DNA of 64,000 bases, taken from the NCBI RefSeq assembly GCF_019021925.1, contig NZ_CP058990.1, positions 3,560,001-3,624,000 of the forward strand, in the 5' to 3' direction. Every line of letters starts with the position of its first letter. The first letter of the stretch is position 1. The notes under the pieces are model-generated. The model saw only the letters and a list, made by a program, of their open reading frames with translations. It was not told where the DNA came from and did no database searches. This document shows positions 6,042 to 52,499 of this stretch, one piece after another. This DNA is from Cellulophaga sp. HaHaR_3_176. Lineage in GTDB: Bacteria; Bacteroidota; Bacteroidia; Flavobacteriales; Flavobacteriaceae. The position numbers were made by a program, and so were the translations under genes.

Positions 6042-6150
6042 AAAAACAACCAACCAATATTTTATACTGTAAAATTAAAGATACTAAAGGTGTTTAGTGT
6101 GCTATTTTGAGTTTTTGCTTAACTGATTTGAACTAGCTTTAATACTTGAA

Positions 6151-6184
6151 AAAAAAGGCCAACTCATTTGAGTTAGCCTTTTTT
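6151..6184 (-). terminator. Terminator of the YtxH/holin-like operon
   Basis: A 16-nt inverted repeat with one mismatch (AAGGCcAACTCA / TGAGTTaGCCTT plus flanking A/T runs), beginning 5 nt after the last stop codon of the minus-strand operon and ending in a T run on that strand. Confidence 0.75.
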
Positions 6185-6188
6185 ATAT

Positions 6189-6395
6189 TTATTTGAAAAG
6201 TTTTTTAAGTAGCATTACCGTACTTAATTTACGTGCTATTTTAAAACCAGACTGTAACCAATTCGCTGGTTGCAGATCTTCTTGTATTTGGTGTTTTATA
6301 CCCTTTATTTCTTCAAGAGCTATTTTGCGTTCAAGGTTATATTGCATTAACTCTAGCTCTATTTCTTCGAATGATGTAAAGTTTGTATTTCTCAT
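6189..6395 (-). CDS. Small helical protein, third gene of the YtxH operon
   Basis: 68 residues. An N-terminal helical part rich in Glu and Leu (FEEIELELMQYNLERKIALEEI) is followed by a weakly hydrophobic, basic C-terminus. The start ATG overlaps the stop of the upstream gene (TAATG), so the two are translationally coupled. I do not recognise a functional family. The same three-gene order (YtxH protein, holin-like protein, short helical protein) is common in Flavobacteriaceae, so a role as partner of the membrane protein is plausible but unproven. Confidence 0.75.
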   Translation of the reverse strand: MRNTNFTSFEEIELELMQYNLERKIALEEIKGIKHQIQEDLQPANWLQSGFKIARKLSTVMLLKKLFK

Positions 6396-36958: not shown

Positions 36959-37029
36959 CACCCGCTTATACGTAAGCAAATAAAAAGAATTAATAATCAA
37001 GGGTCGGGCACCCTACAAATTAATGTGAT

Positions 37030-49408: not shown

Positions 49409-49512
49409 CTTACATCTATTCTTATCACATAAAGTTAAAATATAAAGACTGTTTTTGTTCAAAAAACATAGCAAATATTGAAAATTCTATCATTTACAAC
49501 ATAAATCAAGAG

Positions 49513-49558
49513 CTACACATCAAAAGTTATATAAAAGCTTATCATATAAATATCTTTG
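49513..49558 (+). promoter_or_regulatory. Promoter of small RNA copy 1
   Basis: Conserved upstream block CTACACATCAAAAGTTAT (49513-49530), exactly 20 nt, then the -7 box TATCTTTG (49551-49558). Copy 2 has the same block and the same 20-nt spacing. Confidence 0.6.
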
Positions 49559-49561
49559 AGA

Positions 49562-49651
49562 TGAGTTAGTTAATTAGTTATAAATTTTTTTCATTTTCAT
49601 ATAGTGTTCTCGTAAAAGAGCCCAGTCTTAATTGATTTGGGCTCTTTTTTA
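49562..49651 (+). ncRNA. Putative small RNA, copy 1
   Basis: About 90 nt from just after a TATCTTTG -7 box to the end of a terminator. The body has an AT-rich 5' part (TTAGTTAATTAGT at 49565-49577), a T-rich stretch, the core ATAGTGTTCTCGTAAAAGAG (49601-49620) and a hairpin AAAAGAGCCCA (49614-49624) / TGGGCTCTTTT (49638-49648) with a T tail. No usable open reading frame: ATG at 49561 is followed two codons later by TAG. Two further copies lie at 49804-49892 and 51412-51499. Confidence 0.65.
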
Positions 49652-49689
49652 TTTGTAAAGCATTAATGCTTAATAATTATTTTACCAGC

Positions 49690-49752
49690 AGCAAAACCTT
49701 AAATATATAAGTCCTTAAAACAAATATTTAAGGTTACACCACAAGTTTTGCT
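49690..49752. other. Long interrupted inverted repeat between small RNA copies 1 and 2
   Basis: AACCTTAAATAT (49695-49706) is inverted exactly at 49724-49735, and the adjoining AGCAAAAC (49690-49697) is inverted at 49745-49752 with a bulge. It is not followed by a T run. Its role is unknown. Confidence 0.45.
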
Positions 49753-49754
49753 AA

Positions 49755-49800
49755 CTACACATCAAAAGTTATTTATAACCTTAGTGTCTTTATATATTTG
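49755..49800 (+). promoter_or_regulatory. Promoter of small RNA copy 2
   Basis: CTACACATCAAAAGTTAT (49755-49772), 20 nt, TATATTTG (49793-49800). Identical upstream block and spacing to copy 1. Confidence 0.62.
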
Positions 49801-49803
49801 AGA

Positions 49804-49892
49804 AGAATTAGTTAATTAGTCAAAATTTTTTTCATTTTCATATAGTGTTCTCGTAAAAGAGCCCAGTTTTTAAAAACTGGGCTCTTTTTAAT
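49804..49892 (+). ncRNA. Putative small RNA, copy 2
   Basis: About 89 nt. Close to copy 1 throughout: TTAGTTAATTAGT (49808-49820), the T-rich stretch and the identical core ending at 49860. Its terminator is a perfect 17-bp stem (49855-49871 with 49872-49888). The terminator loop sequence differs from copy 1 while pairing is kept. It converges on the MBL-fold gene ending at 49908 and may terminate that gene as well. Confidence 0.67.
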
Positions 49893-49907
49893 TTAATATT
49901 ATTTATT

Positions 49908-51212
49908 TTAAAATATACTAGGAAAATCTTCTGCTAATATTGGGCCGTAAGACTCCCACCAATAACCTGCCGTTACTCTACGCATAGCATATAGATTTTT
50001 ACCATCGGTTCTAACATTTATCATTCCATTTAATTTTTTTTTAAACAGTCGAGCACCTTTTATATCTTCTTTGTTTAGTGAATGATTGGGAACAATTGTT
50101 TTTAAATCTACCTCACTAGCATCTGAAAAAGTACTAGCTATTTCGGTAGAAAATATTAGAGGTGATTTTGAACGAGAGGCTAAACCTACGGCTCCTATAA
50201 AATTAGCTCTCGGGTGCCCATGGTCAGGAGAGTCACCAGAAGATACTACTGATATTTGAGGGCGTATTGCTTCAAAAAACGAAGGATGAAATTCGTGACT
50301 ACCATGGTGTGGTGTTTTTAATATGTGAGCTCTTAATTGATGTTGTGTGTTTGGGTGTTCGAGCAAATAGTCACTGCCTTCAATATTAATATCTCCAGAG
50401 AAAAGTGTTTTTACATTGTTATATGTAATACTAAAAACCACCGAATGTCCATTGATAGTATGAGAATGATTTTTAAGCCATTTGAATTGTTTTTCACCTA
50501 ATATAGATTTCTCTACCACTGGAGCAATTATTTCCATTGTAATATCTGGGTCGCCAATTTCTATAATACCAGTTTTAGAACTAACAGCTTCATAAGGGAT
50601 ATTTAATTTTTCAACTAGTTTTATCCATTTAGAAAATATATTTCTAAGTTCCATAGTTCCTAAATCTAAAACGCTAGAGTGGTGGGTGATTAGGTATTTT
50701 CTATCAGCACTTAAATCCCCTGATTTTTGATCCATGTTTTTGAACATACCAATACCATTATGTATAATTTTTTTTATGACGATTCTATCGTGTTCAAGAA
50801 TATCAATAAGTCCTTTTAAATGATCTTGATCTGCATGACTTAAGACTAATAAGTCAATTTCTAATTTAGGAGTTGTTAAATCCGCTAATTGATATTTCCA
50901 TTGTAAAAAACCTTTAGCTTGTTTATTATAACCGCCATCAACTAGAATTTTCTTTCTATTAGGTGTAACTATTAAGGCAGCATCACCTTGCCCTACATCA
51001 ATAAAGTAAAGCTCTAATGACGCCTTTTTGTCTATTTGTTTTGTTGCAACATACCCAATATATTTATTTCTATATGTTGCTTTAATTCGTCCATCTATTG
51101 TTTTGCCACTAGTATATAATTCTTCTCCATAAATTAATATTTGCTCATACGCGCTACCAGAAGAGTTTGTGTATAAGCGTGCTGTTTTACTGATAATATA
51201 CCGTATTGCCAT
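49908..51212 (-). CDS. MBL-fold hydrolase with N-terminal SH3-like domain (ComEC/Rec2-like)
   Basis: 434 residues. Residues 1-60 read as a bacterial SH3-like segment (ARLYTNSSGSAYEQILIYGEELYT...KYIGYVATKQI). From residue 67 a metallo-beta-lactamase domain of the ComEC type follows: FIDVGQGDAALIV, the metal motif SHADQDH (His126, Asp128, Asp130, His131), LFSGDINIEGS and KTPHHGSHEF. No signal peptide or membrane segments, so it is a soluble hydrolase rather than the competence channel. Similar stand-alone proteins occur in accessory and defence regions, and the substrate is unknown. Flanked on both sides by the small-RNA repeats, with no operon partner. Confidence 0.82.
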   Translation of the reverse strand: MAIRYIISKTARLYTNSSGSAYEQILIYGEELYTSGKTIDGRIKATYRNKYIGYVATKQIDKKASLELYFIDVGQGDAALIVTPNRKKILVDGGYNKQAKGFLQWKYQLADLTTPKLEIDLLVLSHADQDHLKGLIDILEHDRIVIKKIIHNGIGMFKNMDQKSGDLSADRKYLITHHSSVLDLGTMELRNIFSKWIKLVEKLNIPYEAVSSKTGIIEIGDPDITMEIIAPVVEKSILGEKQFKWLKNHSHTINGHSVVFSITYNNVKTLFSGDINIEGSDYLLEHPNTQHQLRAHILKTPHHGSHEFHPSFFEAIRPQISVVSSGDSPDHGHPRANFIGAVGLASRSKSPLIFSTEIASTFSDASEVDLKTIVPNHSLNKEDIKGARLFKKKLNGMINVRTDGKNLYAMRRVTAGYWWESYGPILAEDFPSIF

Positions 51213-51364
51213 TTCAAAATTAATTTATAATTAAAGGTAGAGGTAGGGGAGTTACCTTAAAAGTAAGATTCTTTTAATGAAAAATTAAAGGCTACAAGAA
51301 TTTTTTCAGGTATTTAATAACTAAACAAACAAGAAAGTGGAGTTACACAACGTAATTTATATAG

Positions 51365-51409
51365 TACACATCAATTCTTTTAAAAAGCTTAAATAAGCTA
51401 TTACATTTA
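51365..51409 (+). promoter_or_regulatory. Promoter of small RNA copy 3
   Basis: Shares TACACATCAA (51365-51374) with the other copies, followed at the corresponding distance by TACATTTA (51402-51409), a weaker -7 box. Confidence 0.45.
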
Positions 51410-51411
51410 CA

Positions 51412-51499
51412 ATATAAATAAGAATAATAAATTTTTCATTTTCTCATATAGTGTTCTCGTAAAAGAGCTCGGTCTTGAATGACTCTGGGCTCTTTTTTA
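51412..51499 (+). ncRNA. Putative small RNA, copy 3 (diverged)
   Basis: About 88 nt. The 5' part has diverged, but the T-rich stretch, the core ATAGTGTTCTCGTAAAAGAG (51448-51467) and the terminator position are kept. In the terminator, copy 1's C-G pair is replaced by U-G (AAAAGAGCTC at 51461-51470 with GGGCTCTTTT at 51487-51496), so pairing survives sequence change. It lies between the MBL gene and the AraC gene, antisense in direction to both. Confidence 0.6.
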
Positions 51500-51512: not shown

Positions 51513-52499
51513 TCAGTCTTTTTTTAAACTACTAGGTAAAAAGTTATAAACTTTTTTAAAAGCTACTGTAAAGTGTTGCGGATTCTTATATCCAATTTCA
51601 TAGGCAGCTTCTGCTATAGTAAAACCTTCATTAACGATTAAACTTTTAGCTTTTTCCATTCGTAGATCTGTTACGTAGGAAAAGATTGGTTTTCCGAAAA
51701 TTAATTTAAAATGCTTTTTTAATTTAAATTGATTTATTCCAGATACAATAGCAAGTTGAGCAATGGTAAACGGGTTTTTTATATGTTCTCTTAAGATTGT
51801 TTCGGCATGTATGATTTTCAGGTAGTCATCTTTACATATGCTTTCAGAATGTTGACTGTTTTTATTTTTTAATCGATTAAAAAAAATAGCAAGAATCTCT
51901 GTGATTTTAGATTCCAAATAGGCTTTTTTTAAACCGCCTGAAAAATCACACGTAATAACTTCATTAATGATACGATGAAGTTGTGGTGTAATTGGTTTAC
52001 TGTTTTCCCACATTACAAATGGAAGGTTATGCTCTAAGGCGATACCAAATTCCGAACAATCTTTTTTAAACGAAGTGCCAAATACACGTTTTAAATATTC
52101 TTTTGTAAATAAAATTTCTAAAGTTTTTCTATTAGGTTTATCATAGCGTAATGTCCCGTTTACTTCTGGTAAGAAAAAAAAATTATAATGACCTCCTGGA
52201 ATATTAACGACAACACTTTTATCATTTTTAGGAGTATAGATACTACTGCCTTCAATTTCAAAATGAATTTTTAAAAAAGGAAAATCATGCTCTACATCAA
52301 TTGTAAGCGGTGGAGTAATTTTTCCGCTGCGCATATTTACTTTAATACCATCAAGTAATATTTCACGTGTTTTACCTTCTATGAATGGATTTTCTGAAAC
52401 AAAAGTATTATCCTCAATCACCTTTTTTTTAAAACCATCAGTAAATATTTTCGTGGTCACTTTATGAGGGTGAATATGATTGCGATATACTGATTTCAT
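51513..52499 (-). CDS. AraC-family regulator of the siderophore module (PchR-like)
   Basis: 328 residues. An N-terminal ligand-binding domain (about 1-220) contains the PchR-like PFVMWENSKPITPQLHRIINE segment. The C-terminal AraC double helix-turn-helix (230-325) includes PFTIAQLAIVSGINQFKLKK and FTIAEAAYEIGYKNPQHFTV. PchR-type proteins sense ferric siderophores and activate the cognate receptor. It diverges from the TonB receptor at 52616, its probable target. Confidence 0.87.
   Translation of the reverse strand: MKSVYRNHIHPHKVTTKIFTDGFKKKVIEDNTFVSENPFIEGKTREILLDGIKVNMRSGKITPPLTIDVEHDFPFLKIHFEIEGSSIYTPKNDKSVVVNIPGGHYNFFFLPEVNGTLRYDKPNRKTLEILFTKEYLKRVFGTSFKKDCSEFGIALEHNLPFVMWENSKPITPQLHRIINEVITCDFSGGLKKAYLESKITEILAIFFNRLKNKNSQHSESICKDDYLKIIHAETILREHIKNPFTIAQLAIVSGINQFKLKKHFKLIFGKPIFSYVTDLRMEKAKSLIVNEGFTIAEAAYEIGYKNPQHFTVAFKKVYNFLPSSLKKD

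Follow-up and report, generated by a model that had tools for sequence, protein, structure and literature searches.

The locus considered here raises the question of what three copies of a short repeated element are doing in a 64,000-nucleotide stretch of Cellulophaga DNA (the window, meaning the whole stretch that was analysed). The sequence-only reading had taken them for small-RNA genes, each with a conserved promoter, core and terminator. To our knowledge, few regulatory RNAs are understood in Bacteroidota, a phylum mostly without Hfq and Shine-Dalgarno sites. We asked whether the copies belong to a family, what might switch them on and which RNAs they might act upon.

The three copies were confirmed at the reported places on the plus strand (Table 1). 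Copies 1, 2 and 3 score 94.7, 87.6 and 78.8 bits against a covariance model from 82 aligned copies (E values of 3.3e-18 to 9.4e-15 in the window search), a model that includes the three copies themselves. The claimed shared core holds, as the 20-nt stretch ATAGTGTTCTCGTAAAAGAG is the same in every copy. So does the fixed spacing of the -7 box, which starts exactly 33 nt past the C of CATCA in the upstream block in 3/3 copies. The far-upstream block described earlier is present as well, but it is the downstream member of a pair of direct repeats phased by 21 bp; the upstream member, absent from the earlier account, reads ACAACA at 49496, ACCACA at 49738 and ACAACG at 51347. The available text of a study on Flavobacterium psychrophilum places the -7 box at -12 to -5 (PMC9723704). 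By this rule the putative +1 sites in Table 1 were assigned, and the predicted RNAs would be approximately 87, 85 and 84 nt long. Stretches starting one base after the putative +1 were folded, with z-scores of -4.4, -6.7 and -2.6; ahead of the terminator, the folds of copies 1 and 2 leave the core unpaired, and that of copy 3 pairs part of it.

Table 1. Features of the three window copies, and loci of a second RNA-like family under the same promoter
Feature	Sequence	Position	Strand	Remark
Copy 1, two 21-bp-phased direct repeats	TTTACAACATAAA; TACACATCAAAAGTTAT	49493..49530	+	predicted LytTR regulator site
Copy 1, -7 box	TATCTTTG	49551..49558	+	putative +1 ~49563
Copy 1, core	UUUUCAUUUUCAUAUAGUGUUCUCGUAAAAGAG	49588..49620	+	
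Copy 1, intrinsic terminator		49614..49649	+	covarying stem; 5' arm overlaps core
Copy 2, two 21-bp-phased direct repeats	TACACCACAAGTT; TACACATCAAAAGTTAT	49735..49772	+	
Copy 2, -7 box	TATATTTG	49793..49800	+	putative +1 ~49805
Copy 2, core		49829..49861	+	
Copy 2, terminator		49855..49889	+	
Copy 3, two 21-bp-phased direct repeats	TACACAACGTAAT; TACACATCAATTCTTTT	51344..51381	+	
Copy 3, -7 box	TACATTTA	51402..51409	+	putative +1 ~51414
Copy 3, core		51432..51467	+	2-nt insertion within U/C-rich stretch
Copy 3, terminator		51461..51497	+	
Second (CCCAAAT) RNA family, multicopy		L247 5160-5319; L253 9041-9221; L254; L240	- (L247, L253)	

The elements are members of a larger family. Public genomes searched with an exact 18-mer gave at least 120 loci, mostly labelled Flavobacteriaceae; the genera among the listed matches include Maribacter, Allomuricauda/Flagellimonas, Zobellia, Arenibacter, Eudoraea, Robiginitalea and Cellulophaga. 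A few listed loci are not RNA copies, such as L107, L158 and two antisense sites, L121 and L134. The match at L107 (position 1200, plus strand), on a contig labelled Actinomycetaceae, has the seed without the upstream core and looks like chance. Viral contigs gave four seed matches, none with the upstream core. Conservation was counted over 148 matches (142 unique) collected with the exact 18-mer and a regular expression. The core is approximately 33 nt long overall and nearly invariant, partly by construction because the copies were gathered with the exact 18-mer; the four T preceding CATTTTC were no requirement in this collection.

A search with two mismatches in the 18-mer (100/299 genomes) mixes real and chance matches, and a covariance model, R1, built from 82 of the 142 unique copies, was therefore used instead. 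Searched against Flavobacteriaceae, as had been proposed, R1 matches 88/299 genomes at E<=0.01. The match is strong (E<=1e-7) in 49/299; the 39 of the 88 with a weak best match (E 1.1e-5 to 0.01) were left out of this set. Twelve of the 49 had supplied model rows, and their matches are thus by construction. In an order-wide draw of 246 genomes, many from one genus, R1 at E<=1e-5 was found in six, all Flavobacteriaceae. Genomes carry several R1 copies. The Cellulophaga genome itself has five clear ones, three of them in the window; the fourth (C1:1534076) differs entirely in its terminator stem and has an unusual -7 box, TAGATTAG, and the fifth (C1:1533234) is diverged.

Pairing of the terminator stem despite sequence change, noticed earlier among the window copies, is stronger across the family. 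In the 82-copy alignment a standard pair is kept in 98.4% of stem cells, and 104 cells are changed on both sides, compared with a mean of 17.1 after shuffling (0/500 shuffles as high) and at most 33 when the structure was slid along the alignment. A switch had also been considered, in which CTC in the core would pair with GAG in the terminator. This idea found no support: both hardly vary across copies, and in the fourth copy the partner of the core CTC reads GAC.

No Rfam family matches the three window copies at threshold. Flavo-1, likewise a Flavobacteriaceae RNA motif and the family suggested for comparison, gave no match at gathering and was absent from the 29 matches up to E=10. The three copies score 30.7, 23 and 21 bits with PsrR1 (RF02701), below its gathering score of 42; this is a photosynthesis RNA by name, with a cyanobacterial host. 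No description of the family was found in the open-licence literature searched. According to the available part of its description, Rfp18 of F. psychrophilum is a conserved, strongly folded sRNA that is proposed to pair, through its third stem-loop, and its deletion lowers two metalloprotease mRNAs (PMC9723704). Both are conserved flavobacterial sRNAs proposed to act by pairing; by description the present family differs from Rfp18 in being single-stem and multicopy (PMC9723704).

The promoter is conserved beyond the window. Of 167 unique copies, 159 have the motif CANCAN5T together with six or more of the 12 flanking consensus letters, and in 127 of these 159 the -7 box lies exactly 33 nt beyond the motif. 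The other 32 promoters, including that of the fourth Cellulophaga copy (TAGATTAG), have no TAnnTTT(A/G) in the range searched. In a separate count, the -7 box was in range in 122/142 copies, compared with a mean of 7.9 and a maximum of 16 in shuffles. When the promoters are aligned on the motif, a second repeat, ACCACA, appears 21 bp upstream and a weak third another 21 bp up. The portions of the LytTR literature available to us describe sites of two 9-11-nt repeats with an 11-13-nt spacer and no common consensus (PMC4847170), one example being ACCACTTAC-12 bp-ACCACTTAC (PMC6193735). The geometry observed here, a 21-bp period upstream of the promoter, agrees with that definition: as in the LytTR promoters covered there, two ~9-nt direct repeats are separated by a ~12-nt spacer, and the half-sites are of the ACCAC type seen in several examples (PMC6193735, PMC4847170). 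Unlike the published promoters in these portions, those described here drive apparent non-coding RNAs and have a TAnnTTT(A/G) -7 box (PMC6193735, PMC4847170).

The genes next to some copies suggest a candidate regulator. At ten loci, the sRNA lies between a gene for a response regulator of ~233 residues and a kinase gene. One regulator was scanned and contains Response_reg and LytTR domains; one scanned kinase contains TPR and HisKA_2/HATPase_c. The Cellulophaga regulator (C1:1713217-1713924) is 88% identical, and 3' of its gene lie the same type of promoter, a diverged small RNA and then the kinase gene. Regulators at E<=1e-60 were found in 58/299 genomes. The 49 genomes with a regulator of at least 78% identity are exactly the 49 with a strong sRNA match, which does not amount to 49 independent events because these genomes are probably related; relatedness inflates the co-occurrence. 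The remaining nine regulator genomes (56-76% identity) are without a strong sRNA. In 29/49 genomes the regulator gene is followed on the same strand by an R1 match no more than 1.2 kb away, three of these matches being weak (G056, G080 and G289; E 7.5e-7 to 2.5e-5, the middle one 7.9e-6). No listed R1 match stands beside the regulator gene in 20/49, and in G000 the only neighbour of this kind is a diverged RNA.

The promoter pattern tracks the regulator. Immediately 3' of the regulator gene the picture is mixed: 21/30 sRNA-positive loci and 5/9 distant-regulator loci have two CANCA motifs spaced by exactly 21 bp, which is the commonest CANCA spacing in both sets. A strict promoter pattern, itself derived from the sRNA promoters, has 91 matches in the sRNA-positive genomes tested (16/16, out of the 49), compared with two for the reversed pattern; an R1 match follows directly after 38 of the 91 but not after the other 53. 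The repeats of window copy 3 escape this pattern because the upstream one has G for A. The pattern is also found in 9/9 genomes with a more distant regulator (30 matches) and, once each, in 6/71 genomes without a regulator match, and its reverse matched once across those 80 genomes. Thus, 25/25 regulator-bearing genomes tested have the pattern, as opposed to 6/71 without a regulator. These data argue strongly for LytTR control of the sRNA promoters, with binding at the repeats predicted from their geometry. By eye, similar repeats at the distant-regulator loci L293, L294, L295 and L296 are followed by small RNA-like units whose cores differ; such units are partly in tandem in the distant-regulator genomes, and several of the nine have a GGTCCCAAATG-like core.

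The same promoter precedes other genes. One set is a second RNA-like family, GTGTAATTAAGTGATAGTGTTGACCCCAAATC..., of ~120-180 nt that has a terminator and in which the motif CCCAAAT recurs (Table 1); by eye, CCCAA often lies in a hairpin loop. Some of its loci adjoin genes that we read as DUF3078-like and as hflX. Its 5' part, with up to three mismatches, was found in 17/49 sRNA-positive and 0/31 other genomes, and the Cellulophaga copies were found solely via the promoter. Rfam matches for five loci of this family are all sub-threshold. The promoter also directly precedes a gene for a mini-protein of ~33 residues, with a product like MEAQINQTPEEIQVYKNDFFSGIVMLTRKLFML (L249, L251, L216 and L225); the one scanned has no Pfam match. 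Between the Cellulophaga regulator and kinase genes, a diverged RNA-like unit (L260 3960-4110, minus strand) contains both a CCCAA motif and a CAUUUUCAU stretch and looks like a bridge between the two RNA families.

What might the core pair with? The core search also matched its own complement, just 3' of a short gene whose two neighbours we read as genes for an M48-like peptidase and an ankyrin protein. This short gene is DUF6747 (PF20532, 87.1 bits), and 5-22 nt past its stop codon lies a site to which 16-18 nt of the core are complementary. DUF6747 occurs in 57/299 genomes, including all 49 sRNA-positive ones and eight without a strong sRNA, and in 0/14 control genomes. A variant-site pattern that excludes the antisense of the sRNA itself, CTTTTACHNGAACACTA, has one match in each of 23/49 sRNA-positive genomes and none in 31 genomes without a strong sRNA, eight of which bear DUF6747; its reverse matched once. 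In three further sRNA-positive genomes, G106, G164 and G215, a full complement lies beside a DUF6747 match by coordinates. The patterns used found no site in 23/49. Among 27 sites inspected, 24 lie 5-22 nt past the stop codon of an ORF judged DUF6747-like by eye and one more, in G229, follows DUF6747 by coordinates; at two (L348 and L134) the script found no DUF6747-like ORF.

The site appears to be held in a hairpin loop. Its central part is wholly unpaired in 16/27 minimum-energy folds, and the flanking stems, which differ among genomes, have a mean pairing of 7.2, compared with maxima of 6.0 in shuffled and 6.4 in swapped sets (200 each). Predicted duplexes between site and core range from -23 to -39 kcal/mol. 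In 23/23 variant sites the central two bases are TT, CT or CA, of which at least one fails to pair with the core. At most 3'-UTR sites this central pair of bases is mismatched to the core, a point against the pairing model. Complementarity of the core to the DUF6747 5' UTR is weak (-6.4 to -10.6 kcal/mol in eight genes examined), and no 5'-UTR target for the core was found. The DUF6747 paralogues L301 and L307 have no site, in a check whose ORF filter missed 26/30 DUF6747 loci. Near-full antisense (34 nt, up to three mismatches) matched just three sRNA copies in the Cellulophaga genome and nothing elsewhere in it. Judging from its complementarity, the DUF6747 3'-UTR site is a likely pairing partner of the core.

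The most likely reading is that a LytTR system activates several RNA genes together and that the sRNA core pairs with partner RNAs, among them the DUF6747 mRNA. We consider it probable that these are multicopy regulatory RNAs of ~85 nt, activated by the LytTR regulator, whose core pairs with partners that include the DUF6747 3' UTR. The window copies would be three of at least five standalone copies in their own genome. A TPR/HisKA_2 sensor kinase and the LytTR response regulator would activate them via two direct repeats 21 bp apart, at a fixed distance from the TAnnTTT(G/A) -7 box, and the RNAs would end at the intrinsic terminator. The mostly single-stranded core, UAGUGUUCUCGUAAAAGA, would then base-pair with partner RNAs in the cell, one conserved partner being the hairpin-loop site in the 3' UTR of the mRNA for the DUF6747 small membrane protein. 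Pairing at this loop may alter the fate of the mRNA, or the mRNA may soak up the sRNA, either direction of effect being a prediction. The sequences themselves establish the family, its promoter and terminator, the co-occurrence with the regulator and the complementarity to the 3'-UTR site; transcription, binding by the LytTR regulator and pairing in cells are predictions from them. The outcome is a conserved family of multicopy RNAs for which a candidate regulator and a candidate RNA partner can both be named. It also gives a starting point for work on DUF6747 and on the second RNA family, which has no Rfam match at threshold at the loci searched.

The CiaR-controlled csRNAs, the LuxO-controlled Qrr RNAs and the GacA-controlled RsmX/Y/Z are sets of similar small RNAs under one two-component regulator with a conserved upstream site, and by description the present family is like them in these respects. 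It differs in its predicted LytTR-type regulator, its flavobacterial host and the conserved partner site in a 3'-UTR hairpin loop. We suggest more tentatively that a single LytTR system may drive a whole RNA regulon, consisting of the multicopy core sRNAs, the multicopy CCCAAAT RNAs and the mini-protein gene, wired to the DUF6747 mRNA by the 3'-UTR hairpin loop as target or sponge. This would be a flavobacterial counterpart of Gac/Rsm or Qrr logic.

The site in the DUF6747 3' UTR could instead serve as a sponge and so control the sRNA, with other mRNAs as the true targets. The presence of one variant site per genome in the 23 matched genomes, pairing at a 3' UTR and not at a start codon, and the highly conserved core are consistent with this; against it, no other conserved target was found among the near-full-length complements searched. 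We consider the sponge somewhat less likely than not. The main rival to pairing is that the sRNAs are decoys for an RNA-binding protein, as CsrB and RsmZ are known to be. The U-rich core would then be the protein site and the copies would raise the dose. The presence of several copies per genome fits such a role, as do the co-regulation of a second RNA family, in which CCCAAAT motifs recur, and the conservation of the core, which seems to exceed the need of a single target. However, the core occurs once per RNA with no repeats within it, and the antisense site in DUF6747 3' UTRs is explained without a protein. We consider the decoy unlikely.

The pairing model takes each element to be a standalone transcript, and the earlier proposal of selection on such a transcript is borne out by the conserved promoter, the covarying terminator, the lack of a long ORF and the orientation of downstream genes. 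By sequence, the element has its own promoter, an intrinsic terminator and no ORF, as expected of a trans-acting sRNA. The nearest downstream gene is on the opposite strand in 105/127 cases, as are both window neighbours (49908-51212 and 51513-52499, minus strand), which argues against a leader RNA. A role as 5' leaders or attenuators for the genes that follow is very improbable and largely refuted by gene orientation, even with a terminator at the 3' end and a co-oriented next gene in 22/127 cases, 12 of them in one sensor-kinase gene cluster. Nor is it at all credible that the core encodes a mini-peptide, GTG TTC TCG TAA: the frame exists, but wobble positions and out-of-frame neighbours are equally conserved (partly by construction) and no longer frame runs over the copies, an ORF of at least 90 aa being absent over 135/136, in line with the earlier statement that no reading frame is conserved.

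No sign of a transposon end, the other origin that had been raised, was seen, and many copies share a common orthologous site. The two main clusters of flanking genes have 52 and 49 members, and the commonest site is flanked by two genes that we read as serine hydrolase-like and menB-like. Elsewhere in the window, positions 6150-6219 (minus strand) give a weak R1 match of 30 bits that is probably just a U-rich terminator. Positions 36989-37024 (plus strand) match the S16-Flavobacteria ribosomal protein leader (RF03138), the sole Rfam gathering match in the window.
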